Shown: piece after piece, positions 33,806 to 53,776 of the stretch
How positions within the stretch are numbered: the first letter of the stretch is position 1
How the letters are laid out: every line of letters starts with the position of its first letter
Origin: Bacteroidales bacterium
Lineage (GTDB): Bacteria; Bacteroidota; Bacteroidia; Bacteroidales; F082
Direction of reading: 5' to 3'
NCBI GenBank assembly: GCA_017395365.1
Contig: JAFPUN010000006.1
Span: 1 to 53,776, forward strand
Length of the DNA stretch: 53,776 nucleotides
Notes under the pieces: model-generated
The model's database searches: none
Told to the model about the DNA's origin: nothing
The model's input: the letters and a program-made list of their open reading frames with translations, nothing else
Position numbers and translations under genes: made by a program

Positions 33806-33826
33806 TCTCACACCAAAACCAGCAAC
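33806..33826. repeat. Degenerate copy of the ATPase locus 4 repeat
   Basis: It reads TCTCACA-N7-CAGCAA, the same two blocks and spacing as in the 33-bp repeats at 35239-35318, in the same orientation, 10 bp beyond the ATPase stop codon. Only 13 defined positions match, so chance is possible. Confidence 0.35.
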
Positions 33827-33836
33827 ACGACCCGAA

Positions 33837-35186
33837 TCACAAGAACATCCCCATAAAAGCCGGCACCAAAACAATGTCGCCGTCTTTTCGAAGGTCTTTT
33901 GAGTAAACCAAATAGTTTTGCCCAATTCGGGAAGAGAACTTGGCCTTGAAGGCATCAAGCGAGGCGTGGGTTTTGTATCCTGATGATTTTACTTCGACAG
34001 GGCAAATTTTGTTTCCCCGGGATAGGATAAAGTCGATTTCGTAGTTGTGCTTTCCACTTTCTGTCGGCCATGTGTGATAAAACAAACGATTGCCAGCTGC
34101 GGTAAGCATTTGGGCTACAAGGTTTTCATAGACATAGCCAAGGTCTGCGGCCAACTTGTCGGTCAGCAATTTCTGGTATATGACATTTTCGGTCACCGCT
34201 TTGTCCCAAAAGGCTAAAGTGATGAATAGGCCCGTGTCGCCAACAAACATTTTGTATTGGTTGTAGTTGGCGTGCATGGGCATCCCAATGTTGGGGTCGT
34301 CAGCGTGATGTGCGAAATTGACGGTCAGGCTGTCCTCCAACTCTTTCAACATCTCCTCCATCGCGTCTTTTTCTTCGCTGCGTCCCAAAACGCTTGTCAC
34401 TTGATATCGCGAGGCGTTTTTCGAGAGTTGTGACGGTATAGCGCCGAAAAGCCTTCCGACTTTTCCCGAAGGGTCGATTTTCTGGAAGTCATCGTTGTAG
34501 AGTTCAATAATTTCGCGTTTTTTTGCATCGACGGCCGCCAAATTGGTGGTGTCCAGGTAGGTTTCTACAGCCTGTGGCATACCGCCCACAAGCATGTATA
34601 GCCTTAAGTCGCGCATGAGTTTCCTGGTCAAGGCATCTCCGAGAGAGCGCTTGTCGTTAAAAGCGGTTTGCAGCAAAGCCATGGTCGTTGTATCGCCCAA
34701 TGCCCAACGGAATTCCTCGTAGTCCATCGGATACATAGTCAGTCGCGTCTCTTCACTCGGAATCACGATGTCCTTCGTGTTCTTCTTGATGGAAAGCAAC
34801 GACCCCGTTTCAATGAAGTCATAACGGTGGTCTTTCACCAAATACTTGATGGCTTGCCTCACAGCAGGGCATTTCTGGATTTCGTCGAAGATGATTACTG
34901 ATCGTCGTTCATGCAAGGTCACGCCATAAATGAACTGGAGTTGCATGAAGAAGTTGTTGCGGTCGGAGATATTGTCCACGGCTTCCCAAACGGCTTGTGG
35001 CGCATCAGCGAAGTCAACCACAATGTGGCTTTCGTACTCATTGCGTGCAAATTCCTCGGCGATGGTGGACTTTCCAATACGCCGTGCCCCTTTGATGAGC
35101 AATGCCGTGGCACCGTCCCGACTTTGCTTCCATTCGAGCATTTCATCGTAAATCTTGCGCTTAAAAACCCTATAATTCGGCTCCAT
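33837..35186 (-). CDS. AAA_14/DUF4143 ATPase with PD-(D/E)XK domain (locus 4)
   Basis: 449 residues from the ATG at 35186, which has a GAGGA ribosome site; a TTG 9 bp upstream is less likely. Walker A is GARRIGKS (33-40, Lys39) and Walker B VIIFDEI (97-103). The nuclease-fold signature is YEIDFIL with Asp385, then PVEVK with Glu398 and Lys400, and the same 13-residue Asp-Glu spacing as in ATPase gene 2. The gene splits the dnaE2-dinB pair of the mutagenesis cassette, which suggests insertion. Three 33-bp repeats lie upstream. The role is unknown. Confidence 0.87.
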   Translation of the reverse strand: MEPNYRVFKRKIYDEMLEWKQSRDGATALLIKGARRIGKSTIAEEFARNEYESHIVVDFADAPQAVWEAVDNISDRNNFFMQLQFIYGVTLHERRSVIIFDEIQKCPAVRQAIKYLVKDHRYDFIETGSLLSIKKNTKDIVIPSEETRLTMYPMDYEEFRWALGDTTTMALLQTAFNDKRSLGDALTRKLMRDLRLYMLVGGMPQAVETYLDTTNLAAVDAKKREIIELYNDDFQKIDPSGKVGRLFGAIPSQLSKNASRYQVTSVLGRSEEKDAMEEMLKELEDSLTVNFAHHADDPNIGMPMHANYNQYKMFVGDTGLFITLAFWDKAVTENVIYQKLLTDKLAADLGYVYENLVAQMLTAAGNRLFYHTWPTESGKHNYEIDFILSRGNKICPVEVKSSGYKTHASLDAFKAKFSSRIGQNYLVYSKDLRKDGDIVLVPAFMGMFL

Positions 35187-35217
35187 TTTCCTCAAAATTT
35201 TTGTCTTGTTTCAAACG

Positions 35218-35225
35218 CAAAAATA
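35218..35225 (-). promoter_or_regulatory. -7 box of ATPase gene 4
   Basis: The minus strand reads TATTTTTG, 31 bp before the ATG and 13 bp from the first repeat unit. A TACTTTTG on the plus strand (35227-35234) has no gene to serve. Confidence 0.55.
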
Positions 35226-35238
35226 CTACTTTTGTCGG

Positions 35239-35318
35239 AATCTCACAATTTTTTCAGCAAAATATGTATGAAATCTCACAATTTTTTCAGCAAAATATGT
35301 ATGGATTCTCATAATTTT
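35239..35318. repeat. 33-bp direct repeats upstream of ATPase gene 4
   Basis: Two identical 32-bp copies start at 35239 and 35272 (AATCTCACAATTTTTTCAGC and onward). A partial third, ATTCTCATAATTTT, starts at 35305. The period is exactly 33 bp, the same as at ATPase gene 3, although the sequences are unrelated. Confidence 0.88.
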
Positions 35319-35330
35319 GACCGTCTACCA

Positions 35331-35401
35331 TTGGCGGCTGCCGTAATACGACAGTCCTACAGTCCTGGTCTGTAGGGCTGTCACATCGTGGCAGCCGCCA
35401 A
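35331..35401. repeat. 71-bp palindromic element, GGCTGCC ends outward
   Basis: TTGGCGGCTGCC...GACAG..TACAG faces CTGTA..CTGTC...GGCAGCCGCCAA around a 7-nt centre. It ends 4 bp before the dinB stop codon and may terminate dinB. It shares its arms with 37714-37784 in swapped order. Confidence 0.8.
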
Positions 35402-35405
35402 TAAA

Positions 35406-36542
35406 TTATCCCGCCGCCCGATGTATGATTTGCTCCCCAAACCGCGTCTTGATCTTATCCAAGGCGGCATACAGATGAGTCAGTTCCATGTTGTCGTCAA
35501 ACAAGGCCAGCTGCGGCGCCCCGCTGACCAGCTCGCTGAAGCGCACGCCCACCAGCCGTATCATCATCCGTCGGTTGTACAACTTGTCGAAGATGCCGTT
35601 CACCGTCTCGCGCAGCACATGATCGAAGGCAGTGTAAGGGATGCGCTGCTGCATGTCGTGTGTGTCGAAGTTGGAATAACGCACCTTCACCGTCACGCAG
35701 CCCGTCAGCTTGCCTTGCGAGCGCAGGTCGAAGCCGAGGCTCTCCACCATACGCGCCAGGCATTGTTTGATGGTCACCACGTCGATGGTGTCCTGATCAA
35801 ATGTCCTTTCCTTGCTGATGGACTTCCGCTCCTGATAGGGACACACAGGCGTGTTGTCCTGTCCGTTAGCCTTCTTCCAGATGTCGAGGCCGTGCTTGCC
35901 CATGGCGCGTTCCATGGCTATGGGTGGCAGCCGGCGCAAGGTGCCTATCTTCTCCACACCCATCGAACGAAGCAAGGTGTAAGTCTTCTCGCCCACCATC
36001 GGGATCTTCTGCACCGACAACGGATCGAGGAAGCTATTAATATAAGGTGTGGGCACCTGCAGCTCTCCGTTGGGCTTGGCCTGTCCCGTGGCGATCTTCG
36101 ACACGGTCTTGTTCTCCGACAAGCCGAACGAGATGGGCAGTCCCGTCTCCTTGATGATGCGTTGCCGCAGCTCGTGCGACCACAGCTGGCAGTCGTGGAA
36201 GCGGTCCATGCCCGTAAGGTCGAGGTAATGCTCGTCGATCGACATCTTCTCGTAGACCGGCGCGCTGTCGGCGATGATGTCGGTCACCAGACGCGAATAA
36301 CGGCTATAGAGTTCCATGTCGCCACGGATGAACACCGCCTGCGAACACAACTGCCGTGCCATGCGCATCGGCATGGCCGAATGCACGCCGAACTTTCGTG
36401 CCTCATAGCTGCACGTCGACACCACGCCGCGGTCCGACATGCCGCCCACGATGACGGGTTTCCCGTCAAGCGATGGGTTCACCAACCGTTCCACCGACAC
36501 GAAGAAGGTGTCCAAATCCAAATGTAAAATCGTCCTTTCCAT
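35406..36542 (-). CDS. dinB: DNA polymerase IV (Y family)
   Basis: 378 residues. Catalytic carboxylates are Asp9 in HLDLDTFF and Asp103/Glu104 in MSIDEHYLDLTG, so the polymerase is intact, unlike the inactive ImuB proteins. GVVSTCSYEARKFGVHSAMP is the fingers motif (about 39-58). The little-finger domain occupies the last ~120 residues. It performs translesion synthesis and would be the partner of the DnaE2-type polymerase. The upstream region carries the 48-bp box also found at dnaE2, and the S24 regulator gene is divergent, an arrangement expected for damage-inducible control. Confidence 0.95.
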   Translation of the reverse strand: MERTILHLDLDTFFVSVERLVNPSLDGKPVIVGGMSDRGVVSTCSYEARKFGVHSAMPMRMARQLCSQAVFIRGDMELYSRYSRLVTDIIADSAPVYEKMSIDEHYLDLTGMDRFHDCQLWSHELRQRIIKETGLPISFGLSENKTVSKIATGQAKPNGELQVPTPYINSFLDPLSVQKIPMVGEKTYTLLRSMGVEKIGTLRRLPPIAMERAMGKHGLDIWKKANGQDNTPVCPYQERKSISKERTFDQDTIDVVTIKQCLARMVESLGFDLRSQGKLTGCVTVKVRYSNFDTHDMQQRIPYTAFDHVLRETVNGIFDKLYNRRMMIRLVGVRFSELVSGAPQLALFDDNMELTHLYAALDKIKTRFGEQIIHRAAG

Positions 36543-36606
36543 CGTTTTTTCTCCTTTTTTTTGCCCAAAATGCTTGCATATTCCAAAAAAGTTGTACTTT
36601 TGACGA

Positions 36607-36654
36607 GTTTTTAATCAGAATTTTTGCCTTAAAACTAATCAATTTATTTGGAAT
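36607..36654 (-). promoter_or_regulatory. Shared 48-bp box upstream of dinB (candidate SOS operator)
   Basis: The partner of 33731-33778. It is also framed by an inverted pair ATTCCAAA (36580-36587) / TTTGGAAT (about 36647-36654). The box lies 65 bp before the dinB ATG. Its position between dinB and the regulator gene fits an operator. A plus-strand TACTTTTG (36595-36602) is also present. Confidence 0.6.
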
Positions 36655-36720
36655 AAGACAATGAACAACGGAAATATTTTTTCAAGAAAAGCATAAAATA
36701 ATGAATGTCAAATGTATAAA

Positions 36721-36871
36721 AACTACGAATTACACAAATTGAGCGAATACCTATGCGAGAATTTTGCAACTTCGTTGCGAATGTGTACGAATCTGGAATT
36801 CGTAAAAATTCGCAGCGTACGCTGCCAAATTCTTTTCGTGTAAATTTGTAACATTCGTGAAATTCGTAGTT
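36721..36871. repeat. Palindromic element ending in AACTACGAATT
   Basis: The ends AACTACGAATT (36721-36731) and AATTCGTAGTT (36861-36871) are perfect complements. Many internal AATTCGT-type segments pair as well. The architecture is the same as 9902-10068. Its right arm carries the TAnnTTTG box of the S24 gene. Confidence 0.75.
36841..36848 (+). promoter_or_regulatory. -7 box of the S24 regulator gene
   Basis: TAAATTTG matches TAnnTTTG, 46 bp before the ATG, inside the palindromic element. Confidence 0.5.
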
Positions 36872-36893
36872 AAATCTTAGATCCCACAATATC

Positions 36894-37703
36894 ATGTACT
36901 TCAACACCAACATCAAATTCCTACGCAAACATCGTGGTCGTACTCAGGATGACATTGCTTTTGCCCTGCAAATGAAGCGCTCCACATTGAGCGGCTATGA
37001 AAACGGCGTCGCCGAGCCCAACCTCGAGGCCCTGGTCGCCTTCTCCAAGTATTTCGGCATCGCCATCGACACCTTGGTGAAAGTCGACCTGAGCAGCATC
37101 AGCCCGAGCCAACTCTCGCAACTCGAACGCGGCTACGATGTGCATCTGAAAGGCAGCAACCTGCGCGTGCTGGCCACTACCGTCAATGCTGACAACGACG
37201 AGAACATCGAACTCGTCGCCGAGAAGGCCAAGGCCGGCTATGCCACAGGCTTTGCCGACCCCGAATACATCAAGGTACTGCCTACCTTCACCATGCCCTT
37301 CCTCTCGCACGACCGCAAGTACCGCACCTTCCAGATCAGCGGCGACTCGATGCTACCCATCCCCGACGGCTCCTATGTCACCGGCGAGTATGTCATCGAC
37401 TGGACCTACATCCGCAGTGGCCAGCCCTACATCGTGCTCACACAGGACGACGGCATCGTCTTCAAGATCGTGGACAACAAGATCGAGCATGAAGGCAAAC
37501 TCACCCTCAGCTCACTCAACCCGCTCTACCATCCCTACGACCTCCCCGCCACCGACATCAAGGAAGTGTGGAAATTTGTGCATTACATCAGTGCGGAAAT
37601 GCCACAACAGCGCGAAAACCGCTTCCGCGAAGAAGAACTGATGCGCACCGTACAGGAATTGAAAAAACAGGTGGAGGAAATCCAATTACGGTTGAACATT
37701 TAA
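36894..37703 (+). CDS. LexA/CI-type regulator: helix-turn-helix plus S24 peptidase
   Basis: 269 residues. The N-terminal XRE-type helix-turn-helix spans about 6-62 (FLRKHRGRTQDDIAFAL, then RSTLSGYENG). The C-terminal S24 domain has Ser152 in SGDSMLP and Lys191 in GIVFKIV as the dyad. An Ala114-Gly115 pair in KAKAGYATGF is placed like the LexA self-cleavage site. A coiled-coil tail ends the protein (LKKQVEEIQLRLNI). By family it is a repressor that self-cleaves with RecA after DNA damage. It lies divergent to dinB, near the 48-bp box, so it is the natural candidate to control dinB and dnaE2. Binding is not shown. Confidence 0.88.
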   Translation: MYFNTNIKFLRKHRGRTQDDIAFALQMKRSTLSGYENGVAEPNLEALVAFSKYFGIAIDTLVKVDLSSISPSQLSQLERGYDVHLKGSNLRVLATTVNADNDENIELVAEKAKAGYATGFADPEYIKVLPTFTMPFLSHDRKYRTFQISGDSMLPIPDGSYVTGEYVIDWTYIRSGQPYIVLTQDDGIVFKIVDNKIEHEGKLTLSSLNPLYHPYDLPATDIKEVWKFVHYISAEMPQQRENRFREEELMRTVQELKKQVEEIQLRLNI

Positions 37704-39358: not shown

Positions 39359-41749
39359 GTGATCTACCCAACCAACTTCGAACAAAAAATCGGCTTCGCC
39401 AGCGTCCGACAGATGCTCTCCGACCACTGCATCAGCCAGATGGGACTGGAATGGGCGGACAAGATGGCCTTCTCGACCAACAAAGCCGCCATCCTCAAGA
39501 GCTTGGAACAAACCGAGGAGTTCATAGGTCTGCTGCAGACCGGCGTACCCTTCCCCATGCGCGACTTCCACGACCTGCGCGAGGCCTTCCACCGCATCCA
39601 AATCGACGGCACCTGCCTCAATGTAGAGGACCTCTTCGCCCTGAAGCCCTCGCTCAACGTCGTCGAGGCCATCCTGCGCTATGGCCACTCCGAGAGTGCC
39701 GACGCCACGCCACGCATCAAGTCACTGATTGAGGACATCTTCATCGACCGTAGCATCTTCACCGAGGTGAACCGCCTTGTCGACGACAAGGGCGAGATCC
39801 CCGACAATGCCTCCACCGAACTGCTCGAGATTCGCCAAAGCATACGCCGCAAGCAAGGCGGCATCGAGAAACGCATCCGCCAGATCATGGGCGACGCCAA
39901 GACCGCGGGTTGGGTCGACGCGAAGGCGGAACTCACCGTGCGCGACGGCCGCCTGGTCATCCCCGTGAAGGCGGGCGACAAACGTGCCATCCGAGGCTTC
40001 ATCCACGACGAGTCGGCCACCGGCCAGACCGTCTACATCGAGCCGGCCGAGATCTTCGACACCTCCAACGAAATCAAAGAACTGGAGTATGCCGAACGCC
40101 GCGAGATCCACCGCATCCTCATGGCCTTCACCCGACTGCTTAGGCCCTACCTCTCCGAGCTCCGCAAGGCATGGCACCTCTTGGGCGAACTCGACTTCAT
40201 CCGCGCCAAGGCCTTACTGGCTAACGAAATCGGCGGCGTGAAACCCGAATTACTGGACACACCTTATATTAATTGGCAACAAGCACGTCATCCCCTTCTG
40301 GAAAAGAAGCTGAAAGCCCAAGGCAAGCAAGTCGTCCCCCTGGACCTGCAACTCAACGAGAAGGAGCGCATCCTCGTCATCAGTGGTCCCAACGCGGGCG
40401 GCAAGTCGGTCTGCCTAAAGACCACCGGGCTGCTGCAATATATGTTGCAGTGCGGTTTGATGCCCCCCATGCGCGTCGACTCGCAGTGCGGCCTCTTCGA
40501 GAGCCTCTTCATCGACATCGGCGACGAGCAGTCCATCCTGGACGACCTGTCGACCTACAGCTCACACCTTATTAATATGAAGGCCCTGCTGGAGAACGCC
40601 GACGGCAAGACCCTCTTCCTCATCGACGAATTCGGCACGGGCACCGAGCCTCAGCTGGGCGGCGCCATCGCCGAGGCCATCCTCCTCGAGTTGAACAAGA
40701 AACAGGCCTTCGGCATGGTCACCACGCACTATGCCAACCTCAAACTACTTGCCGACAACCACGAGGGCATCGTCAACGGCGCCATGCTGTTCGACACGCG
40801 CTTCATGCAGCCCATGTACATCATGATGACCGGCAAGCCCGGCTCGTCGTTCGCCTTCGAGATTGCCAAGAAGATCGGCTTCCCACGGCAGATCCTCGAC
40901 GATGCCGCCAACATCACCGGCGACCAGCACCTCAAGTTCGAGAAACAGCTGCAGCAGCTCGAAGTCGACAAGAAAGCCATCCGCAAGAAAGAACAGGACC
41001 TGCGCATCGCCGACCAGCTGCTCACCGAGGTGGTGGAGAAATACAAGAAACTCCTCGCCGAGCTTGAAAGCAAGAAGAAGCAATACCTTCGCGACGCCGC
41101 TGCCGAGGCTCAGGAGCTGATACAGAAGGCCAACAGCCAGATTGAGCGCACCATCAAGGAGATCAAAGAGGCGCAGGCCGAGAAGACGAAGACCAAGGAG
41201 ATACGCCAGAACTTAGAGAAGACCAAGGAAGAGATCGCCCAGAAGGCCAAAGAGGCTGCCGAGGCCAAGAAAAAGGAAGAGACCGAGGTGGTGCTGAAGG
41301 TGGGCGACACCGTCTGCATCGAGGAGATGCAGGTGGTGGGCGAGATCCTTTCCATCAGCGACACCGACGCCACCATCCTCTTCGACAGCGTGCGTTTGCG
41401 CACCAGTCCCGACAAGCTCCGCAAGGTGAGCCGTGCCGAGGCTCGCAAGGCACAACGCAACTGGCAGAAAGGCATCGCTGCCGACCTCAGCGAGAAGGCC
41501 GAGCACTTCGACCTCACCTTGGATGTGCGTGGCAAGCGTGCCGAAGAGGCTTTGGACATCGTCGACAAATACCTTGACGAGGCCAAACTGCTCAGCATCA
41601 AAGAGGTGAGCATCTTGCACGGCAAGGGCAACGGCATCTTGCGCAAGCTCATCCGCGAGAAGCTCAGCCACATCCACGAGGTGGAGCACTTCTGCGACGC
41701 CTCCTTAGAGACTGGCGGCACCGGGATCACTAGGGTTTACTTTAAGTAA
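39359..41749 (+). CDS. mutS2: MutS2-family ATPase/Smr endonuclease
   Basis: 796 residues, normal for MutS2. The GTG start gives MIYPTNFEQKIGF, which fits the family in this phylum. The MutS core has Walker A SGPNAGGKS (342-350, Lys349) and Walker B TLFLIDEFGTGTEP. A long coiled coil (about 525-640, KKEQDLRIADQLLTEVVEKY, ends) precedes a KOW-like linker and the Smr nuclease domain with LDVRG and HGKGNGILR. It acts on recombination intermediates or collided ribosomes in other bacteria. The gene lies 21 bp after the ATPase remnant, and the only nearby promoter box belongs to that remnant. Confidence 0.95.
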   Translation: MIYPTNFEQKIGFASVRQMLSDHCISQMGLEWADKMAFSTNKAAILKSLEQTEEFIGLLQTGVPFPMRDFHDLREAFHRIQIDGTCLNVEDLFALKPSLNVVEAILRYGHSESADATPRIKSLIEDIFIDRSIFTEVNRLVDDKGEIPDNASTELLEIRQSIRRKQGGIEKRIRQIMGDAKTAGWVDAKAELTVRDGRLVIPVKAGDKRAIRGFIHDESATGQTVYIEPAEIFDTSNEIKELEYAERREIHRILMAFTRLLRPYLSELRKAWHLLGELDFIRAKALLANEIGGVKPELLDTPYINWQQARHPLLEKKLKAQGKQVVPLDLQLNEKERILVISGPNAGGKSVCLKTTGLLQYMLQCGLMPPMRVDSQCGLFESLFIDIGDEQSILDDLSTYSSHLINMKALLENADGKTLFLIDEFGTGTEPQLGGAIAEAILLELNKKQAFGMVTTHYANLKLLADNHEGIVNGAMLFDTRFMQPMYIMMTGKPGSSFAFEIAKKIGFPRQILDDAANITGDQHLKFEKQLQQLEVDKKAIRKKEQDLRIADQLLTEVVEKYKKLLAELESKKKQYLRDAAAEAQELIQKANSQIERTIKEIKEAQAEKTKTKEIRQNLEKTKEEIAQKAKEAAEAKKKEETEVVLKVGDTVCIEEMQVVGEILSISDTDATILFDSVRLRTSPDKLRKVSRAEARKAQRNWQKGIAADLSEKAEHFDLTLDVRGKRAEEALDIVDKYLDEAKLLSIKEVSILHGKGNGILRKLIREKLSHIHEVEHFCDASLETGGTGITRVYFK

Positions 41750-41806: not shown

Positions 41807-41830
41807 CCTCATTGCGGGCGGAGACCCGCA

Positions 41831-42412
41831 AATCGAAGATTCGGCGGAGCCAATCTAGGAGTACAGTTACCTAAAAAATGTAAAGTCACCACACTTGTAG
41901 CGACACGTCCAAGGAGACTATAGTATATTCGGAGCACTCTTTATCTAGATTGCTTCGTTCCTCGCAAATCCCCGATTCGACGATGCGAAGCGAGTCAATG
42001 ACGCAAAGCGACGCGGGTGCAACGCCCTAAGTAGAGCAAGGCCCTGCGTCCGGCAGGCTTCCCCCTTTTAAGGGGGGCAGGGGGGATTCAACACTCGTCC
42101 GGCAGGCAGTCAATGCTGCTTGTCGGGAGACGAGTGTTGACTCCCCCGCCCTTCGGCCCCCCCCCTCAAAAGGGGGAGGTCCGCCATGAGGGTTTGAGGC
42201 ATGAGTGTAGGGTATTGAGATTCCCTTCGGGAATGGAGTTAGTATTATTAGGTAACACGCGGCGGCTTGAAGTGTTTACGGGTCGTTAACGGTACTGGCC
42301 GCCGCAGGCCACTCTATGTCTACCTCCATTCCCGCCTGCTGGCGGGAACCTCATCATTCGCATTCATGTTTCTCGTAATAAAGCAACTCGAGGATTGTCC
42401 GTCATTGCGAGG
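41831..42412. repeat. 0.6-kb tandem duplication, copy 1
   Basis: It starts AATCGAAGATTCGGCGGAGC and is repeated from 42428, offset 597 bp, growing to 636 bp toward the end because copy 2 has an insertion. Within it are nested palindromes (CCCCCTTTT...AAAAGGGGG, AACACTCGTC...GACGAGTGTT) and a copy of the covarying element. No coding signal was seen. Confidence 0.9.
42217..42352. repeat. Palindromic element, covarying family copy B
   Basis: Outer hairpin ATTCCC-TTC-GGGAAT on the left and CCCGCC..GGCGGG on the right. The inner stem is GCGGCGGC (42259-42266) with GCCGCCGC (42298-42305) around 31 nt. Confidence 0.8.
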
Positions 42413-42427
42413 AGGCACGACGAAGCA

Positions 42428-43047
42428 AATCGAAGATTCGGCGGAGCCAATCTAGGAGTACCGTTACCTAAAAAATGTAAAGTCACCACACTTGTAGCGA
42501 CACGTCCAAGGAGACTATAGTATATTCGGAGCACTCTTTATCTAGATTGCTTCGTTCCTCGCAAATCCCCGATTCGACGATGCGAAGCGAGTCAATGACG
42601 CGAAGCGACGCGGATGCAACGCCCTGAGTAGAGCAAGGCTGCGTCCGGTAGGCATCCCCCTTTTAAGGGGGGCAGGGGGGATTCAACACTCGTCCGGCAG
42701 GCAGTCTAGTCTGCTTGTCGGAAGGCGTGTGTTGACTCCCCCGCCCTTCGGGCACCCCCTCAAAAGGGGGAGGTCCGCCATGAGGGTTTGAGGCATGAGT
42801 GTAGGGTATTGAGATTCCCTTCGGGAATGGAGTTAGTATTATTAGGTAACACGCGGCGGTTTGAAGTGTTTACGAAGCGTTAACGATAGAAACCGCCGCT
42901 GGACACTCTACGTTCACCTCCATTGACTCCGTCGAAATGCTCCGCATTCAGCGTAGCTAATCTAGCGATTCCCCCGAAGGGGAACCTCCTCAATCGCATT
43001 CATGTTTCTCGTAATAAAGCAACTCGAGGATTGTCCGTCATTGCGAG
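42428..43047. repeat. 0.6-kb tandem duplication, copy 2
   Basis: It is nearly identical to copy 1 over the first ~190 bp (few substitutions), then diverges with small indels. A third partial copy of about 60 bp (CTTCGTTCCTCGCAAATCCC and onward) lies at 43110-43173. Confidence 0.9.
42811..42988. repeat. Palindromic element, covarying family copy C, interrupted
   Basis: The inner stem is GCGGCGGTTT (42853-42862) with AAACCGCCGC (42890-42899). About 40 bp of extra sequence splits the right outer arm after CTCCATT. Confidence 0.75.
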
Positions 43048-43201
43048 CGGAGCGCGGCAATCCAGATAAAGAGCTCACCATCTGGATTGACTTCGTCGAA
43101 TCTTAGATTTGCTTCGTTCCTCGCAAATCCCCGATTCGACGATGCGAAGCGAGTCAATGACGCAAAGCGACGCAGGTACAAAGCAACAATTTGTAGAATA
43201 A

Positions 43202-43603
43202 TGTAACCTATTTGTGACACTTTCTCAAAAACAATTGTAACATATTTGTTACATATTCACAAAACCATATTGTAACGTATTTGTTACACTATACTCAAGA
43301 AACAAAACATATAGTGCAATGGTTTTGTTACAGTGTATTCAAGTATTATCGTGTAACATATTTGTTACACTTTCCAAAAACATACTATGTAACATATTTG
43401 TTACAATATACCACCTCTAATAAATATGTAACACATTTGTTACACTTCGGCAAGCACCATATTTTGTAACATATTTGTTACAACATATCGCCCATACAAG
43501 ACTTGTAACATATTTGTTACAACACTCCTTCTCTCATGATTATGTAACACATTTGTTACATACCATACCCATGCAAACCTTAATGTGTAACACATTTGTT
43601 ACA
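43202..43603. repeat. Array of 11 dyads, TGTAACA-N4-TGTTACA
   Basis: Consensus TGTAACAYATTTGTTACA. Units start at 43202, 43236, 43270, 43314, 43351, 43388, 43427, 43465, 43504, 43543 and 43586. Eight or nine are exact or near exact; 43202 and 43314 are decayed. Spacing is 34 to 44 bp, mostly 37-39. The spacers are AT-rich and unrelated to each other. The array ends 99 bp before the adhesin's -7 box. No cas gene is nearby. Confidence 0.93.
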
Positions 43604-43702
43604 TTGCATAGAAATTTAAACCATATATTACTGATTTCTAATAAATTAACATAATACTTTCAAAAATGCCACAAATATGATACAAGCTAAAGATATTTTT
43701 AC

Positions 43703-43710
43703 TATTTTTG
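43703..43710 (+). promoter_or_regulatory. -7 box of the giant adhesin gene
   Basis: TATTTTTG matches TAnnTTTG. It is the best promoter match between the dyad array and the start codon. Confidence 0.5.
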
Positions 43711-44074
43711 CCGCCGGATTGGAAGGTACAGCCAGTCCATTGTACGAAATAAAGAATACTATAGTAAAAAAGGATCCTAAAATGCAGAAAACCAGCAACC
43801 TTACAAGGTCTTATGCTGGACACTTACTGACAACAATTCCTTCGCTCCGCGAGTTTTTTTCCGTGCGGTGTGAGGGGAAAATAGGTCTGCAAGTGCCTGG
43901 GAAGAGACTGCCCTGCCGCCAACCCGATGGTGTGGCGCGATTTGTCGTGCCCCGTGGCCAAAACGCCGCACTTGTGCGACCGTAACCTTATATAATTAAT
44001 AAGGTGAGTTTCGAATGTGATAAGATACAAGACAATTAATAGAGACAAAAATCAAATATTAAACACAAATCAAA
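43711..44074 (+). other. Long 5' leader of the adhesin gene
   Basis: About 360 nt with no open frame that looks coded. It contains GC-rich foldable stretches around 43850-43980 and a dyad ACCTTAT-N7-ATAAGGT (43985-44005). No known riboswitch class was recognised. Thermosensor, attenuation or plain leader are all open. Confidence 0.4.
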
Positions 44075-47000
44075 ATGCGACAGTATTACAAACAAGGAAG
44101 AAAGCTCAACAAGTTGAAAACCAGCTTGCTGATGCTGATCATGGTGCTCTTCGCCAGCGCAGCGATGGCACAAACCAATGTTAACATGTCCAACGGAACC
44201 TCAGTCGTGACTTCCGCTGGTGTTAACTTCTACGACTCGGGTGGTCCTGGTGGGGGTGATTACCGTTACCAACACAACGAGGAGTACATCTATACCTTCA
44301 CCTTGCCTAGCCAGCAAGCCAACGCAGGTTTGAAGGTGGAATTCAGCACACTCCGTGTGAATGATGACCATCTTTTCATCTATGAAGGCACTTCGCCTAA
44401 CGATGATCATCTGATTGCCGACTTCACGTGTAACGACTACTACTACTCGTTTACCGACCTGTGTGTCGGCGGCAATATCACAGTGCTTTCCCATAGCGCC
44501 ATCACCTTCAAGTTCGTTTCAAACGAACAATATCGTGACAACGGTTGGGAAGCTAGCATCAGCATCGTCGAGCAGACATACATCGCTTCGAATCCTCCTG
44601 CGCCGGTGATTGCCATGTATGCTTGCGAAAACACCGTGGAGCTGATTCCCACCATGCTGAGCACGAGCCCTGCGCTCCAGCTGTACTACAGCACTAATGG
44701 TGGCAGCAGCTACACTGAATACAGCACTCCCTTCGATGTGGAGAATGGCATGACGGTGAAGGCTTATGCCATGCTGGGCGAAGCCCAGACCGCTACCGCC
44801 AACTACCATAGCGTTGAGATTAACCGTGCAGCCATTGCAAAGCCAACGCTCACCCGTTTGTCTGAAAACAACAACCTTTTGTTGGTGACCCGTCCTACCG
44901 TTCCTACTGGTGCCAACGACACCTACAAGGTGCGTTATACCCTCGACGGCAGCGACCCCACCACCTCTGGATCGGCAATAACCATTGAGTGGACACACGT
45001 TACCGGCCAAACCGACATCAACGTCGACACCATTGATATGACCAATGCAACTTGGTTGAGCCCCACTGGCAATTTCCAAGTGAAGGCCGTTACGCAAGGA
45101 ACCACCTGCCCCGATATCATGTCGGCGGTTGAAACCTATGAGACGACCAACCTCCATGCTGCCACTCCGGTCATTACGTTTACAGGCACGGGCGAGACGG
45201 GCACCATTGCCATCACTTGTGCTACTGCGGGTGCTGACATATACTACACTATAGACGGTTCTATTCCTGATCCCGAAAACAACCCGGACAATACCTATGA
45301 GTGGGGTGCCACCGGTGCTCCCACCACCATTACGGCTGGCGGTACCGTTAGAGCCTTTGCCGTGGCTCCTCATCGAACTAATTCCAGCGTGGCTTCTGCT
45401 ATCTATGTGCCTGGCGGTGAAAGTGGCGGTAGCGGCGTGTACGGTGGCGTGGTCCTCTTGGATGACCGCGAGGACCACACTTGGAGCTACTACAGCGACA
45501 GCGAACAGCCCATCCACAGCCTGAAACCCGCCGACGTGAAGATTACCTACTTCGGCTACGGCGCGAACACCATGACTACTACCAATACGGCTGCCAACAA
45601 CATTCCTAACAGTGCTTTTAACGCGGATGTGGCTGCCAACCAAGTTGCTGTAAACGTGGGTGAAGCTGGCAACCAGTTCATCTATCTGAAGACCTTGGAA
45701 AACGCCAATGCCGAAGGAAGTGGTACCAACTACCCCTATACGATGATCGCTAACCCGTTCCAGAAGAGACCTGTGTATGATCCGAATAGTGGCGGTAGCA
45801 CCTTCAGTTATACACAAGACTTTGAAAATGGTAACGATTGGACCTTTGTCCAAAGCACTACAAACTATTGGACTCGTGGCACCGCTGCTTCAAATGGAGG
45901 AAGCTATGGCCTTTATATTACGAATGGTAATAATAATAATTATACCAATAACACGACAGCGGTTTCCTATGCTTATAAGGAATTTACACTTTCTGCTGGC
46001 ACTTATAATATAAGCTATAATTGGAGAGCATATGGAGAATCAAACTATGATTACATTCGCGTTGTGCTTGCCCCATCAAATGTTACCCTTACCGCTAATC
46101 AGTTATACGATAATTTAACTTATTACAGCGTTCCCAATGGCTGGACGGCACTTGATGGCGGAAAGTTAAACCTTCAAAACACATGGCAAACGGGTGGCGC
46201 TAGTTTTACTGTTGCCGCGGGAACCTATAAAGTGATAATTGTTTGGCGAAACGATGGTAACCGAGGGACTAACCCTCCTGCTGCCATTGACAATATCAGC
46301 ATTACCGAAGGTAGCAGTAGCTCTTCCGACTATCGTGGCTTCTACGCTTGGCGTATCAAGAGCTTGGGCGGTGGTCTTACCATCTCTGGCAAGTCGGTGG
46401 GTGATATGGTTTATCCCGATGAAGACATCACTTTCGTTACCTCCAACGCCGAAGGCAATGAAGTGGAGTTTGAAGCCCTTTGGGCCAAAGCTTGGGTAAC
46501 CACGAGCACCTCAGCCATGTCGTCAGGCAACTATGCCACTAACAACGGCAGCTATAAGAACGCTTACGAACGTAACTTCCATGTGGTTACTTCACTTCCC
46601 ACCCATAGCACTTATCCTTATACTATCACTACCATCAATCCTGATGGATCGGGTACGGTGAGATCAATTTCAAATTCGTCTTACAGTTGCGCAACCGATG
46701 TGAGGTTGGAGAATATGACACTGAGTATAACCGGCAGTGCTTACTTGAATGCCAACGGTCACAACCTGCATATTGGTCGCGGTGTGGCCAACGGCACCAG
46801 TAATGTGGCTTCTGCTGTGTATGGAGCTTATTACCAAGCATCAAATAATACTAACACTACCACATTGGACAATGATTTCAATGTGCGTATAGAGAGTGGA
46901 CGTTATTCGAACATGTATGGTTTGTATAAAGCTGCAAGTAATTACCAAACAGGCAGGACTGTTATTACAAACTCATTCACTGAGAGAGTCATTTTTGGTA

Positions 47001-50000
47001 GTGACTATGATAGGGCAAAGGACAATACCAATAACAAGCTCATCATCTCTGGAGCTATTGAAGTCGGATTATATATCAGCTGTTCATCAGCAGATGCAAA
47101 AATTGCTTTCGAAGCCTTGAGCGGTACATTTGGTTCAAATTCTGCAAATACAGAGATGTATATGGGATTTGAAAACTGCAGTGATTCATACGATTGTACG
47201 GCTTTGCGTACTCTCGATGTCTTGGGAGGTGTTTTCTTAGGAGGTGTTGCAGGAGGTGTTGATAGAGGAGCAAGCCAAGATGCAGTTGTCTTGAAGATGC
47301 GTTTCAAGGGTGGATCAGTAGGCCGTTATGTTTATGGCTCTGGACAGCATTCATCTGCAACGGGAAGCCGTAAGACCATCATTACTGGTGGCGACTACGA
47401 TTGCTGGATTTCAGGTGCATGCTATGGTACGCACATGCAATCAGGTAGCGGTAGTAGTGACTATTCTGGTAAAACCACAGGTAACACCTATGTGTATTTT
47501 GGTGGTAATGCTAACCAAACCAATACGGATGGTATCTTTGGCGCAGGATATGGTGAAGACGCTACCACGGAAGATTATTATACCGTACTTAAATCCTTCG
47601 TTGTCGTAGCCGACGATGCCACCACCACTGGCTCTGTCTATGGTGGCGGTAATAATGGTTACAACAAGGATAATGCTGAAGTTTGGGTGCTTGGCGGCGG
47701 CGAAGACAAGCTGACCGTTTCAGGTAGTGTTTATGGCGGTGCCAACTTGTCGCGCACTGAGGGAACCACTAAGGTTACCATGAAGGGCGGCACAGTGAAC
47801 GGCTCGCTCTATGGCGGTGCCCAAGGTGCCTCTGCCTCATCCGACATCGTTTATGTTACCGGTACGGCGACCGTTGATATGAAGGGCGGCCACGTGAAGA
47901 CTGATGTATACGGCGGCGGTTACGGTTCGAGAACCGTCATTAGAGGCAACACCACGGTCGGCGTCAGCGGCGGCACGGTTGATGGCAATGTCTATGGTGG
48001 TGGTGCATTAGGCACAGTGGGTAGAGATGGAAACAATAACGGTGCAAATGCTGTGGTCACCATCAGCGGCGACGCAAAGGTCAACAATGTGTATGGTGCT
48101 GGTAAGGGTACCCAGAACGACAACGTGCCTGTCACCAATGCCAACATCTTTGGTACCACTACGGTAACTGTCAAGGAAGATGCCCATGTGCTTGGTTCTG
48201 TGTATGGCGGCGGCGAAAACGGTAGCGTGGGTTACTACAACAACAACAGCACCGCTACGGGCAGCACCGTCAACATCAACGGCGGCCTCATCGATAATAA
48301 TGTGTTCGGTGGTGGTTCCTACGGTGTCACCAACGGTAATGTCGTCGTCAACATCACTTGGGACGACGACGAGATGACCAAGACCCAGATCAAAGGCTCG
48401 GTGTATGGTGGCGCCTTCGGTACGCGTGAAAAGGTGTACGTGAAGGGTACCAAGACCGTCAATATGAACAATGGTATCGTGGGCAACAGCGTCTACGGAG
48501 GTTCGCGTAACGCCGATGATGCCTTGGCTTGGACGGGCACCGCTGGCACAACCACTACAAGCAACGTAGTCAACATCTCAGGCGGTGAAGTCACCTATCA
48601 GGTGTTTGCCGCCGGTTACTTCGGCCACACTTACGGTTCAGCCTACGCCTTCATCGGCGAACATGCCATCAACACGGCACAAGAAAAGGCTCCTACTAAT
48701 GGCTTTGATTACGATATTAACCCGCTATATATCAAGGGCAGTGTGTGGGCCGGCGCCGACTTCGGTAACTTCGACGGTCATAGCTTCGGTGCTTCCACGG
48801 TGGAAGGTAAAACCTACGTCTACATCGACGGCACGGGCTACAACACCATCACCGCGAATCCCCAAGTCAATGGTTATATGAATATCGGTGGCAGCGTATA
48901 CGGTTGCGGCACCTCCTGCGATGCCGGTAAGACCGACACCAAGGTGGTGGTACGCAACTACGGTCAACCTGTGGCCAATGAATCGGGTGCCAAAGAAGCC
49001 ATCGAAGAGCCTTACCAAACGGCTACCCGTGAGCTCTATTCCATCCAGCGCGCCAAGACTGTCGTCCTCGACAATGCCCATATCAATTATGTCGGTCAAG
49101 GTAGGGTGAACTCCTTGGTCACCACCGAGAAATATGCCATCCATAATGTGGAGACCGCCTTGTATGTGGTCAATAGTAGCTCCGTGATGATCAACCGTCC
49201 TATCGACGAAATCAAGAAGTTGGTCAATGGTAGCTGCACCAATGTGTATGCGGCAAGCCCCACTTTCACTCCTGTGAATCTCAGCGATGGCACTATCAGC
49301 GTCGAAAACAAGTATCGTGTGTATGGCGGTACCTTTATTAATGTATTCTATACCACTGAGACCTCTGAGGGAACCGAAGAGAAGTATGGCGAGCTGAGCG
49401 GCTTTGCCTATATGATGACGGATGCCTACGAAGGTGATGAAAACACGAGGAGCTGCGCCTATGCCCGTCCGAAGTATGGTCAAGGCGCCTCTTTCCCACA
49501 GGGCAGCACTGCATACGACAACCCCAATGATGGTGGTTTCATCAGCTACAATGACGAGTATAATGAGTTTAATGCTGCTGGTATGAACGCCTCGCCTGGT
49601 GTTCAGATGCGCTACGAAAACCACGTCTATACCAGCAAGAACGGTGAAGACTACTTCCGTATCTGGCGTTACGGTGGCCTTCACAGCTATCGTGAAGCTG
49701 TGCTCATCGCTGAGTCAAATGCCGTGGCTAACACCTACAGTATTTGCAATGCTGTAGTTGAGCTTCCTGCCACCGTGGAGAACGGTTACTACCGTATCCA
49801 GGTGAAGCAAAGTGGCGGTACTGGCACCACTATCGACTACGGTACTGATGTGGCTACCTGCAATGCCGGCTACTATGGCGACACCTATTCCGCCACGGCT
49901 AGCAATTGGATGAGTGCTGGAACCAATGCCTTCCAGACGGGACAGTCGAGTTCAGACGTTAGTGTCGGTCTTGCCTGCATTAATTCATATCCAGATGTCA

Positions 50001-53000
50001 ACTTCGGTTTGGTAGCCATCCCGCAAGGCGCCATGGCTACTGCTGGCAATGTGAACAATGAGAATTGGATCATCAATGAGGATGCTGATGCCATTTTGGC
50101 CGGTAACAATACCAAATGGACCTATAGTGACAACACGGAGATGCCTGAGGTATTGTTCCAACTGACCTATAGCAACAACATCAGTGTGAACAGGGTGCTT
50201 GACCCCGTCACCATCTATTTTGAGCAGTACGAACCTGTCTATGAAAACGGTGAACTAACCGGTTATCAGCTTGCCGATGTGGTGGAAGTGGCTTTGATCA
50301 TAACCACAAAGACGACCATCAACCAGCCTGTGCGCACCCGTGTTGTGGCTCTTATGCAAGGCAAGGGTGAATGTGGCAACGTGTATCAAGGTAGGGTCAC
50401 CTTGCCTTCGTATTCTGTCTTTATGAACACCAACGGCGATCCTTCAGAATGGACCTTGCAGAGCCTGACATGGGACGATGAGGTGAATGGTACGCATACA
50501 GGTGCTTCGATGGTTCAGTATTCTGATGGTGAACATCCTGAATACGAAGGTTCAGACACCGAGTTCTCCATGCTCTTCTATGCAGCCCAAAACAAGGACT
50601 ACACCTGGGGTTGGGACGACTATAATTACGGCCCGTTCGATGTTACCGAATACATTGGTCAAACCAACATTGGCGAACGTATTGGTCAGACCATGGGTCG
50701 TAAGGACTTCACCATCGATTTTGACCTGTATTACGATGGCTCATTGAAATCGACGACACAACTGATGGGAACGTTGACCTTTACTTTCCAGTTCACTCAC
50801 TATAATACAGGTACTAATGATGACCCGGTTGACGGAACAGGGACTTCAACCATTGTTATTGAGGTGTGGCGAAAGGGTCCTGGCGACAATTATTACCTTG
50901 ACGGCGTGAATGGAATGAACAGCTATGCTGGTACGCGTCCCGATGCCGCAAAACTGACCTTGAACGGCATTCTTTCCCGTACCGAATACATGGCTGGTGA
51001 CAACATCTTCATCGTCAACACGGTAACACAAGATGATGCCGCCACCTTGAGCTGGGATGGTTCTGCCTACGAGAACATTACCATTTATCGTTATCCTGGC
51101 GGTCATCCTATGGCCTACGGCGATGATACTTGGACGTCGGCCTTCTATGAGGATTATAACCATGACAACCCCTGCTTCCCAGGCGTTATGGTGGATGTGA
51201 AGTCCGAGATGGAGATGCACTATATCACGCTCAACGGTTATTCGGAAGAAATCAACGCCGAACATCCTGTTGGTCATGATTTGGAATCGAGCGTTGTTGA
51301 AGCCTTTGCCGCCACGGCTCCTATGGTCAGAGTTGAGAAAAACGGTAAGCTTAACTTGGCCACCGGTACCTTGTTGACATGTAATGCCAACACCAAGGCT
51401 CAAGTCGGTGAGAATGATATTCCCGGTGGTGCTGTCAAGGTTGATAAACAAGGCACCTTGACCATGGCAGTTAATTCCACGATCACCGGCAACTCCACGG
51501 CCAATACAGGTGGTGGTATCTATATGGAAGGTACGATGAATATCGCTGGCTTGGTGAATGTGACAGGCAACACCAAAGCTACCTCCGCAAAAGCTTCCAA
51601 CGAGAACAATGTGTACTTGAAAGAATATGAAAATGTCATCACCATGACTGGCGATGTTGATCCTGAATCGAGGATTGGCATTACCAAGGACGATTGGAAA
51701 CCTGCTGGTTCAGAACAAGACAAGTGGTACAACCCCGTTGTGTTTTCCGATAATCCTTCTCGTCTGGATGTCTTCTACACGGATGAAGACCTTGGTCGTG
51801 CAACTGACGATAAGGAGATGTATCAGTTGAACAAGCTGAATTTGTCTCCGGCAGAGTTCCAGAACTCCAAGAAGTATCTTTTCTTCGTCGGTACCTGGGT
51901 GACGGCTGTGACCAGCGAGCCTACAGGCTTTGCTGCCGATAATATCAACACGCCTCAAAAACTGGCTTGGGCTATCTCCGTTGCTACGGGTTACAATGAC
52001 GTTAATAACGGTGCTGGTTATCCCAACACCAACTTCAAGTTGACCGCCGACATCGACATGAACGACAACATCTGGGTGCCGATCGGCAATGCCGATATAA
52101 ACTACACTGGTACCTTCGACGGCAACGGCCATGTGGTCACGGGTATCCGCAGTCCTCTCGACGCTTCCGACAAGGGTATGTTCGGTGTGATTAACGGTGC
52201 CACCATTGAGAATATGATCATCAGCACCGACTTCTCTGATGGTACCAGCGACAACTTGGGCGGTTTGGTCGGTCTCATGGAGAACGGTACGATTGCCAAC
52301 TGTGAGGCTGCCGGTAGCGTCACTGGTAATGCCAATACCCAAAACATGGGTGGTATTGCCGCTAAGGTGAATGATGGTACGATCCATTCCGTCTTCGCCG
52401 TCAGCACGCTGACCGGTGGTGAAGAAACCGTCATGGGTGGTTTGATTGGTACCAACAGCGGTGACCTCTACAACAGCTACGCCAATACCACGATGAGCGG
52501 TTCCACCACAATGGGTGGTCTCGTTGGTGTCAACAAGGGCCATGTTGAAAACTGCTATTCCATCATCGGCGAGCAGACCTTCCCGGCCTTTGCTTACGAC
52601 AATACGGACGGTGAAATTACCGTCTGCTATACTGACACACCGAATGGTTATATGGCAGCGCCTACTACCAGCAACGCTACTAAGTCTAACACCTATGGCG
52701 CTGTCGAGCCAGACATCAAGGCCCTCGGCTACATGTTTGGTGACAACCTCATCGCAAAGAACACCAACACCTATGTCGGTAACAGTAGCGTGACCGACGC
52801 GGCCGGTCTGACTACTTATGTCGACAAACACATCCCGGTTTGGAATGGTCTGTTGAGCGCCTTGAACCAGTGGGTGAGAGAAAAGAAAGCTATCGAAGAC
52901 GAAGAAGATCCTTTGTATGGTGTTGCCTTTGCTTCGTGGAACCGCCCAATCAACAAGGACATCAACGGCGACCTACCGATCTTGGCCTTCCCGATGGACA

Positions 53001-53776
53001 ACAGCTTGGCTACGCTCAACAGCGACGGCAAGTTCCTGCAATACAGCACGGGCCTCGACAACCTGCTAAATGACTACAAGGATCCTTCCGGCATCTTCGT
53101 ATACGGCGCTGTTGAAGGCGTTGCTAAGGTGCCTTACAACAACAACGTGAAGGTCTCCATCGCCGAGGACGCCGTGCTGATCCAGGCGGACAACGCTCCC
53201 GACTTCAAGGCCACCGTAGGTATCACCTTCGACAACTCCGACAAGGGTGCACATGCTGTCGACAATCAAGGTGTCCATCTCAAATACGACTGGCACATGA
53301 TGTCAACCCCATTGCAGGATGCCGCCTTCGGAACAACGTATAAACCTAATGCCACTATAGGCTATGGACAACCTGTCGATATCCAATCCATGGTTAACGG
53401 TTACTTCCCGAACGGTCTGCCAATGGGCGCCGAATATGAAGACGGTGTGAAATGGGACTTCTACACCTACTACGAGCCGCAGTACCACTGGATCAACTTC
53501 AAGCGTAGCATCAACAACCACTGGCACTACGATATCATCAACCATACGCATCCTAATATTCCTTACGCTGAGGCTGACCAAACCACAGGCAAGTTCACTC
53601 CCGGTAAGGGCTACATGATGGCCATCAGCCAGGATAGCTACATGAGCAACTCGGGCGTGCTGAACAACGGCGACGTGACAATCAAGCTCACCAACCAAGA
53701 GCCTAATGATTTGAAGTACAACAAGGGCTGGAACCTCGTGGGTAACCCCTACCAGGCCTACCTCAACGTCAGCAGC
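44075..53776 (+). CDS. Giant secreted adhesin, 3' end outside the window
   Basis: 3,234 codons without a stop. The signal peptide ends FASAAMAQ (about residue 33). In order: a CUB-like domain (about 36-165), two chitobiase-type segments with YTLDGSDP (about 287) and YTIDGSIP (about 388), a cleaved-adhesin-like jelly roll (about 575-750), then a right-handed beta-helix region from about 855. The helix contains some 12 turns ending in SVYGGG-like motifs (about 1187-1615). A mixed beta region follows, then four GLUG-type repeats such as GGLVGLMENGTI (about 2685-2830). The last visible part, KGWNLVGNPYQAYLNVSS, is of the type that often precedes a T9SS sorting domain. Probably a surface adhesin. 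Product length and sorting signal remain unseen. Confidence 0.85.
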   Translation, partial: MRQYYKQGRKLNKLKTSLLMLIMVLFASAAMAQTNVNMSNGTSVVTSAGVNFYDSGGPGGGDYRYQHNEEYIYTFTLPSQQANAGLKVEFSTLRVNDDHLFIYEGTSPNDDHLIADFTCNDYYYSFTDLCVGGNITVLSHSAITFKFVSNEQYRDNGWEASISIVEQTYIASNPPAPVIAMYACENTVELIPTMLSTSPALQLYYSTNGGSSYTEYSTPFDVENGMTVKAYAMLGEAQTATANYHSVEINRAAIAKPTLTRLSENNNLLLVTRPTVPTGANDTYKVRYTLDGSDPTTSGSAITIEWTHVTGQTDINVDTIDMTNATWLSPTGNFQVKAVTQGTTCPDIMSAVETYETTNLHAATPVITFTGTGETGTIAITCATAGADIYYTIDGSIPDPENNPDNTYEWGATGAPTTITAGGTVRAFAVAPHRTNSSVASAIYVPGGESGGSGVYGGVVLLDDREDHTWSYYSDSEQPIHSLKPADVKITYFGYGANTMTTTNTAANNIPNSAFNADVAANQVAVNVGEAGNQFIYLKTLENANAEGSGTNYPYTMIANPFQKRPVYDPNSGGSTFSYTQDFENGNDWTFVQSTTNYWTRGTAASNGGSYGLYITNGNNNNYTNNTTAVSYAYKEFTLSAGTYNISYNWRAYGESNYDYIRVVLAPSNVTLTANQLYDNLTYYSVPNGWTALDGGKLNLQNTWQTGGASFTVAAGTYKVIIVWRNDGNRGTNPPAAIDNISITEGSSSSSDYRGFYAWRIKSLGGGLTISGKSVGDMVYPDEDITFVTSNAEGNEVEFEALWAKAWVTTSTSAMSSGNYATNNGSYKNAYERNFHVVTSLPTHSTYPYTITTINPDGSGTVRSISNSSYSCATDVRLENMTLSITGSAYLNANGHNLHIGRGVANGTSNVASAVYGAYYQASNNTNTTTLDNDFNVRIESGRYSNMYGLYKAASNYQTGRTVITNSFTERVIFGSDYDRAKDNTNNKLIISGAIEVGLYISCSSADAKIAFEALSGTFGSNSANTEMYMGFENCSDSYDCTALRTLDVLGGVFLGGVAGGVDRGASQDAVVLKMRFKGGSVGRYVYGSGQHSSATGSRKTIITGGDYDCWISGACYGTHMQSGSGSSDYSGKTTGNTYVYFGGNANQTNTDGIFGAGYGEDATTEDYYTVLKSFVVVADDATTTGSVYGGGNNGYNKDNAEVWVLGGGEDKLTVSGSVYGGANLSRTEGTTKVTMKGGTVNGSLYGGAQGASASSDIVYVTGTATVDMKGGHVKTDVYGGGYGSRTVIRGNTTVGVSGGTVDGNVYGGGALGTVGRDGNNNGANAVVTISGDAKVNNVYGAGKGTQNDNVPVTNANIFGTTTVTVKEDAHVLGSVYGGGENGSVGYYNNNSTATGSTVNINGGLIDNNVFGGGSYGVTNGNVVVNITWDDDEMTKTQIKGSVYGGAFGTREKVYVKGTKTVNMNNGIVGNSVYGGSRNADDALAWTGTAGTTTTSNVVNISGGEVTYQVFAAGYFGHTYGSAYAFIGEHAINTAQEKAPTNGFDYDINPLYIKGSVWAGADFGNFDGHSFGASTVEGKTYVYIDGTGYNTITANPQVNGYMNIGGSVYGCGTSCDAGKTDTKVVVRNYGQPVANESGAKEAIEEPYQTATRELYSIQRAKTVVLDNAHINYVGQGRVNSLVTTEKYAIHNVETALYVVNSSSVMINRPIDEIKKLVNGSCTNVYAASPTFTPVNLSDGTISVENKYRVYGGTFINVFYTTETSEGTEEKYGELSGFAYMMTDAYEGDENTRSCAYARPKYGQGASFPQGSTAYDNPNDGGFISYNDEYNEFNAAGMNASPGVQMRYENHVYTSKNGEDYFRIWRYGGLHSYREAVLIAESNAVANTYSICNAVVELPATVENGYYRIQVKQSGGTGTTIDYGTDVATCNAGYYGDTYSATASNWMSAGTNAFQTGQSSSDVSVGLACINSYPDVNFGLVAIPQGAMATAGNVNNENWIINEDADAILAGNNTKWTYSDNTEMPEVLFQLTYSNNISVNRVLDPVTIYFEQYEPVYENGELTGYQLADVVEVALIITTKTTINQPVRTRVVALMQGKGECGNVYQGRVTLPSYSVFMNTNGDPSEWTLQSLTWDDEVNGTHTGASMVQYSDGEHPEYEGSDTEFSMLFYAAQNKDYTWGWDDYNYGPFDVTEYIGQTNIGERIGQTMGRKDFTIDFDLYYDGSLKSTTQLMGTLTFTFQFTHYNTGTNDDPVDGTGTSTIVIEVWRKGPGDNYYLDGVNGMNSYAGTRPDAAKLTLNGILSRTEYMAGDNIFIVNTVTQDDAATLSWDGSAYENITIYRYPGGHPMAYGDDTWTSAFYEDYNHDNPCFPGVMVDVKSEMEMHYITLNGYSEEINAEHPVGHDLESSVVEAFAATAPMVRVEKNGKLNLATGTLLTCNANTKAQVGENDIPGGAVKVDKQGTLTMAVNSTITGNSTANTGGGIYMEGTMNIAGLVNVTGNTKATSAKASNENNVYLKEYENVITMTGDVDPESRIGITKDDWKPAGSEQDKWYNPVVFSDNPSRLDVFYTDEDLGRATDDKEMYQLNKLNLSPAEFQNSKKYLFFVGTWVTAVTSEPTGFAADNINTPQKLAWAISVATGYNDVNNGAGYPNTNFKLTADIDMNDNIWVPIGNADINYTGTFDGNGHVVTGIRSPLDASDKGMFGVINGATIENMIISTDFSDGTSDNLGGLVGLMENGTIANCEAAGSVTGNANTQNMGGIAAKVNDGTIHSVFAVSTLTGGEETVMGGLIGTNSGDLYNSYANTTMSGSTTMGGLVGVNKGHVENCYSIIGEQTFPAFAYDNTDGEITVCYTDTPNGYMAAPTTSNATKSNTYGAVEPDIKALGYMFGDNLIAKNTNTYVGNSSVTDAAGLTTYVDKHIPVWNGLLSALNQWVREKKAIEDEEDPLYGVAFASWNRPINKDINGDLPILAFPMDNSLATLNSDGKFLQYSTGLDNLLNDYKDPSGIFVYGAVEGVAKVPYNNNVKVSIAEDAVLIQADNAPDFKATVGITFDNSDKGAHAVDNQGVHLKYDWHMMSTPLQDAAFGTTYKPNATIGYGQPVDIQSMVNGYFPNGLPMGAEYEDGVKWDFYTYYEPQYHWINFKRSINNHWHYDIINHTHPNIPYAEADQTTGKFTPGKGYMMAISQDSYMSNSGVLNNGDVTIKLTNQEPNDLKYNKGWNLVGNPYQAYLNVSS

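Follow-up and report, generated by a model that had tools for sequence, protein, structure and literature searches.

The window is a DNA stretch of 53,776 nucleotides that makes up the whole of contig C3 of genome G000 (2.11 Mb, 72.6% complete). Between a MutS2-type gene and the gene of a giant surface protein it carries an array of eleven short dyads, followed by a putative promoter and a leader (Table 1). The box of this promoter fits the Bacteroides -7 consensus, which is given as TAnnTTTG in the excerpts available of PMC7366714, and the stretch around it recurs in other genomes of the genus, with nine such loci compared. The promoter type points to a member of the Bacteroidota. The leader core (GGATCCTAAAATG...) recurs before the proteins at the same locus of G091, G092 and G095, and also in G028. 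Rfam gave no match over the array or in the leader; its sole match in the window was a DUF805b RNA at 5667-5701 on the minus strand. About 1.4 kb of repetitive non-coding DNA (41828-43184) separates mutS2 from the array and includes a tandem duplication of about 600 bp (98% over 215 nt), and its dispersed repeats were found elsewhere in G000, G066, G102 and G076. Further upstream (30798-37703), an XRE-S24 (LexA/CI-like) gene lies near genes for a Y-family polymerase and the DNA polymerase III alpha subunit, an arrangement like an SOS mutagenesis cassette.

Table 1. Features of the array locus in the window.
Feature	Coordinates	Strand	Remarks
MutS2-type gene	39359..41749	+	MutS_V and Smr domains; upstream neighbour, locus marker in relatives
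Array of 11 18-bp dyads, TGTAACA-YATT-TGTTACA	43202..43603	+	Spacers (16-26 bp) differ from one another; orthologous arrays in G102 and G066; unit starts 43202, 43236, 43271, 43315, 43352, 43388, 43427, 43465, 43504, 43543, 43586
Twelfth dyad, degenerate, inverted	43667..43684	-	Adjoins promoter; 3 mismatches (2 in G102 and in G066)
-7-like box TATTTTTG of putative promoter	43703..43710	+	Fits TAnnTTTG
Leader	43711..43948	+	Conserved in G102 and G066 despite different downstream protein
Giant secreted surface protein	44075..53776	+	Open at contig end, at least 3234 aa; CHB_HEX_C_1, Fn3_assoc and Glug domains; called secreted from its N-terminus, judged by eye

All eleven 18-bp units that the sequence-only reading had placed at the array were present. 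Eight matched TGTAACA-N4-TGTTACA exactly, while the units at 43271, 43202 and 43315 carried one, two and three mismatches, respectively. The start-to-start spacings were 34, 35, 44, 37, 36, 39, 38, 39, 39 and 43 bp, so that the spacing of mostly 37-39 bp reported earlier held in part, the actual range (34-44 bp) being somewhat wider. With up to three mismatches allowed, the dyad had 14 matches in the window compared to a mean of 2.03 in shuffled sequence, and 14 or more were reached in 0 of 100 shuffles. The arm columns over the 11 units were invariant or nearly so, with the exception of position 7, and the middle bases were mirrored (A4 in 11/11 units, T15 in 10/11). Both the mismatch scan and the unit columns thus gave the array dyads the two-fold symmetry of a putative operator. 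The motif GTnAC was kept by both arms in 10 of the 11 units and was absent from the left arm of unit 4. The spacers (43236-43603) are G-poor on the plus strand, with 14 G and 49 C among 188 bases.

Of 99 genomes of the genus, three (G000, G066 and G102) matched the exact two-unit pattern, in a search that misses arrays with more mismatches or other spacing. The arrays comprised 11 units in G000, 11 in G102 and 10 in G066, compared to one or two dyads per locus elsewhere, and the twelfth unit was present in each. The three species have common spacers and the same order of mutS2, array and giant secreted protein. An array scattered over unrelated positions in relatives would have spoken against the sequence-only reading; it stood at the same locus in all three. 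The claim that the arms are kept better than the spacers was borne out in 3/3 species pairs. Over units 2-12, the window differed from G102 at 4/154 arm and 21/187 spacer positions (Fisher p 0.003) and from G066 at 4/154 and 24/188 (p 0.0006), and G102 differed from G066 at 2/154 and 12/187 (p 0.025). The protein behind the array is different: it has CHB_HEX/Fn3-associated domains in the window and is of a VWA-like type, judged by eye, in G102 and G066. A protein on contig C17 of G102, whose start is similar to that of the array-locus protein, contains a VWA_2 domain.

All eight exact dyads of G000 lie inside the array. With up to two mismatches there were 10 array sites and a single off-array site in this genome, compared to 10 matches of the reversed control pattern, and a regulon elsewhere in G000 was therefore rejected. 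G102 and G066 had five off-array sites each, against 6 and 13 control matches, so that none of the three genomes exceeded its control.

The locus was then compared in relatives by means of mutS2, which was matched in 99 genomes; 20 of the downstream stretches were fetched and read. Among the listed reading frames, a large secreted-looking protein followed mutS2 in 7/20 stretches (G091, G092, G095, G032, G020, G111 and G112). G091, G092 and G095 share the leader core, yet no heptamer was found in their mutS2-downstream stretches, and 18/20 stretches held at most one heptamer. G111 and G112 each carry one exact dyad, between a small HTH gene and the large protein. The idea that such adhesins generally carry the array was rejected, since the stretches upstream of 13 homologues (12 of 1160 bases, and one, L067, of 473) lacked the dyad even with two mismatches allowed and contained one heptamer at most. 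A loose two-heptamer pattern was also rejected as a marker: it matched 24/60 relatives and does not discriminate, because the matches were mostly one or two per genome and many came with control matches. Among the matches listed in the scan of the genome collection, many had 12-bp periods, as may be found in coding repeats. A flank search returned mostly dispersed repeats.

Outside the arrays, nine exact dyads were found in 8/99 genomes of the genus, where the control pattern gave 1 match. In G084, G085, G111 and G112 one dyad each separates an HTH gene from a secreted-looking protein, in G023 one precedes an HTH gene, and the four remaining dyads fall inside reading frames. All of the intergenic ones (5/5) adjoin a gene for an XRE-like helix-turn-helix protein of about 75 aa. 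The expectation that the dyad recurs before secreted-protein genes was thus borne out in four relatives, where a single dyad stands ahead of a secreted or giant protein gene, and failed in G000, whose exact dyads are confined to the array. A regulator with a site in its own promoter, also proposed as a check, was seen in G023, where the dyad lies 67 bp upstream of the gene's own -7-like box, while no dyad-linked regulator was found in the incomplete G000.

The HTH protein of G112 found matches in 88/99 genomes of the genus. The search returned 30 loci, of which 26 were parsed (all except L464-L467), and a dyad was counted if it had at most two mismatches and lay between -200 and +450 bp from the recognition-helix motif. 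It was present in 6/6 loci with the helix RMxCYRIF, in 2/3 with CHRTNIYRIF and in 0/17 with other helices. The association between dyad and HTH gene is partly circular, because it was the dyad itself that led to several of the HTH loci. Moreover, the chance figures were calculated post hoc (Fisher p 6e-6 and 1e-4, and 2e-10 for the distance to the box), the helix groups having been drawn after the dyads were seen, and they are further weakened by the dyad-found loci and by the homologous pairs G102/G076 and G111/G112. The case for the link rests on the counts and on the loci that were found by protein alone and nevertheless carry the site, namely G082, G076 and G102:C17, together with G436 and G317 outside the genus, more than on these figures. 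The C17 locus belongs to an array-bearing genome and its HTH gene stands before a VWA-type giant protein, while at the G082 locus no large secreted protein follows within the stretch read.

A regulator gene adjoins the dyad at the single-site loci, whereas there is none at the array locus. HTH proteins of the RMxCYRIF subtype were not found in G000 or in G066 (85% complete), where the best matches were 45 and 44% identical and had SRQNAYKI helices; as both genomes are incomplete, absence of the regulator is not proved by this. The lipoprotein that neighbours the G102:C17 locus seems to be present in G066 as well, without the HTH gene or the dyad. The G112 protein scored above the Pfam HTH_3 cut-off (26.2 against 23 bits), the other two proteins scanned did not match this family at E 0.001, and NCBIfam matched 0/10 such HTH proteins. 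The sole solved chain matched at E 0.01 was 8tac (DBP48, E = 0.0019), which we take to be a designed DNA-binding protein. Other small HTH genes precede giant secreted proteins at L060, L064 and L068, where the dyad is absent, which suggests that the genus may have a regulator family with different operators. Beside the CHRTNIYRIF-type HTH gene of G017 (L477, 1637-1672) lie two abutting related palindromes, TGTAGCGGAATTGTGACA and TGTCACAATTCCGCTACA.

Beyond the genus, a relative of the HTH protein was found at E 1e-8 in 48/393 genomes drawn from the order. A total of 28 loci were looked at; 12 lacked the helix motif and two (L519 and L522) were evidently wrong matches, which left 14. The site was present in 2/14, G436 (RMACYRIF, two mismatches) and G317 (RIQCYRIF, one mismatch), which rank first among the HTH matches beyond the genus. 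No site with up to three mismatches was present in the remaining 12, whose helices differ. The G436 locus, found by protein alone, belongs to another family of the order. The gene after the HTH gene is not giant in either case, and in G436 it encodes a secreted-looking protein of 215 aa.

The distance from the dyad to the promoter was measured between the centres of the dyad and of the -7 box. At the RMxCYRIF loci it was 66 bp in G102, G076 and G112, 67 bp in G111, and 66 bp in G082, where the box has one mismatch. In G023 it was 67 bp before the HTH gene itself and 66 bp for a three-mismatch site before the next gene. G436 also gave 66 bp, and second sites at 44 bp were present in G023 and G436. 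The distances in G084 and G085 were 62 and 44 bp, and at the G317 site no TAnnTTTG box was found in range. At the array, unit 12 lies 31 bp and unit 11 lies 112 bp from the box, and no unit lies at 66 or 44 bp, which indicates that the array does not simply repeat the single-site layout.

The data favour the first of the readings put forward from the sequence, that the array is a multi-site putative operator of the adhesin gene. More specifically, we estimate at roughly two in three the probability that the eleven units and the degenerate twelfth are operators for an XRE-like HTH protein of about 75 aa with the helix RMxCYRIF, multiplied before the gene of a giant surface protein. Since the same site occurs singly or in pairs beside a small HTH gene at a fixed promoter distance, we consider it most likely that the array provides such a regulator with a multiplied docking platform. 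In related genomes, the RMxCYRIF gene is found upstream of the gene for a secreted or giant surface protein; one or two dyads separate the two genes, and one of these dyads is 66-67 bp upstream of the next -7 box. A dimer would bind each 18-bp dyad and, at single-site loci, would act from an upstream position as an activator, which is suggested by the fixed distance between dyad and box; the regulator of the putative operator cluster is thus probably an activator. In the lineage of the window, the locus has no regulator gene, and the operator would have been multiplied to eleven beside a conserved promoter and leader; in G102 a regulator of the RMxCYRIF subtype is encoded on contig C17. With so many sites close together, expression would respond steeply to the regulator level, and the array could also draw the regulator away from other loci. 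The eleven copies may therefore serve, for example, a sharper response or titration of the regulator. We suggest only tentatively that the array is enhancer-like, with eleven sites forming both a switch-like activator platform for one giant surface protein and a sink that draws the regulator from sibling surface-protein loci bearing one or two sites, so that the expression of surface proteins would be ranked by site number.

The same regulator and operators could instead repress. The promoter would then be shut by a nucleoprotein filament spanning about 480 bp, much as lambda-type repressors act. Unit 12 lies 31 bp from the centre of the -7 box and thus near the -33 region, and the helix-turn-helix type includes many repressors. 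The single-site loci, with the dyad at 66-67 bp from the box, place it further away than simple blocking would seem to need, and we regard repression as rather unlikely.

Much less probable is a row of boxes for an OmpR/PhoB-type response regulator, with two 7-bp half sites separated by a 4-bp gap and lying 11 bp apart, a layout that resembles the Pho box. The half sites are indeed 11 bp apart, but the mirrored A4 and T15 form a dyad and not the direct repeat of such a box, and the neighbouring gene in relatives is a small HTH gene. According to the parts available of PMC3586657, TGTWACAW is associated with OmpR of Salmonella Typhi and was present in 12/43 peaks, with several copies in seven. 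These sites are similar to the array in the heptamer and in their multiple copies, and they differ in the regulator type and in that the same parts describe no mirror dyad with N4.

It is very improbable that the units are binding sites of the nucleoid-associated EbfC/YbaB family, whose Borrelia member recognises GTnAC. This core is present in each intact arm, and EbfC binds it at operators of surface-protein genes, as stated in the portions available of PMC2720974; the same portions state that this specificity is not common to the YbaB proteins of E. coli and H. influenzae. Furthermore, the unit kept here is an 18-bp dyad with N4, unlike the Borrelia sites, and it is tied to one HTH subtype in relatives.

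A replication, partition or other mobile-element site is equally hard to support. Clusters of TGTTACA occur between phage-like genes in L173, L153 and L072, and L173 contains the identical dyad on the other strand. N4 is fixed in all array units and variable in those clusters, the array lies between mutS2 and the surface protein in three species, and the phage and plasmid collections gave no match to it. Nothing came to light in favour of the partition or anchoring site that the sequence-only account had offered as an alternative. The clusters themselves (L173 4540-4830, L153 1120-1370 and L072 5490-5700) consist of TGTTACA/TGTAACA with heptamer doublets or triplets at their sides.

The array is still less likely to act as RNA, in the form of a transcript with a row of small hairpins. 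The G-poor spacers could fit such a transcript, while the arm changes in units 1, 3, 4 and 12 are one-sided by eye, without compensation, neither strand has an exact TAnnTTTG box in the 140 bp that follow units 1-10, and Rfam gave no match at the array. The regular short repeats with unlike spacers recall a CRISPR, a reading that the sequence-only account had rightly set aside and that is the least likely of all: the three species share the same spacers, with point changes, at the same locus, and the array has no match in the phage and plasmid collections.

Operators of XRE/HTH_3 proteins are known from lambda- and 434-type repressors and from small controller (C) proteins, which use a few sites. 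By analogy, the array may work like such a small regulator-operator system, with which it shares a small HTH protein as the proposed regulator and a two-fold symmetric site of about 18 bp with an A/T-rich centre; at the single-site loci the site also adjoins the regulator gene and in one case precedes it. Unlike these systems, it has eleven sites in one stretch before one gene and no regulator gene at the locus. Mycobacteriophage stoperators, as described in the sections available of PMC9283540, are also many binding sites for a single repressor; they are asymmetric and spread over the phage genome, not clustered before one bacterial gene.

If the preferred reading of multiplied HTH operators is true, the locus would represent a natural and evolutionarily kept amplification of an operator, about eleven-fold, before a single bacterial gene, for which the one- and two-site relatives would be ready controls. 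It would also offer a testable regulator-operator pair for surface-protein control, defined by the helix motif, the 18-bp site and the 66-67-bp box distance, as seen in this genus and at one locus of another family of the order. A narrow search of the literature with combined terms for operator arrays before adhesins gave no match, which does not prove absence from print. Another array of a similar dyad, YGTAACAYCGCTGTTACA, was observed in an Ignavibacteriales record (L101, 1608-1811), with seven copies, a 31-bp period and identical spacers.
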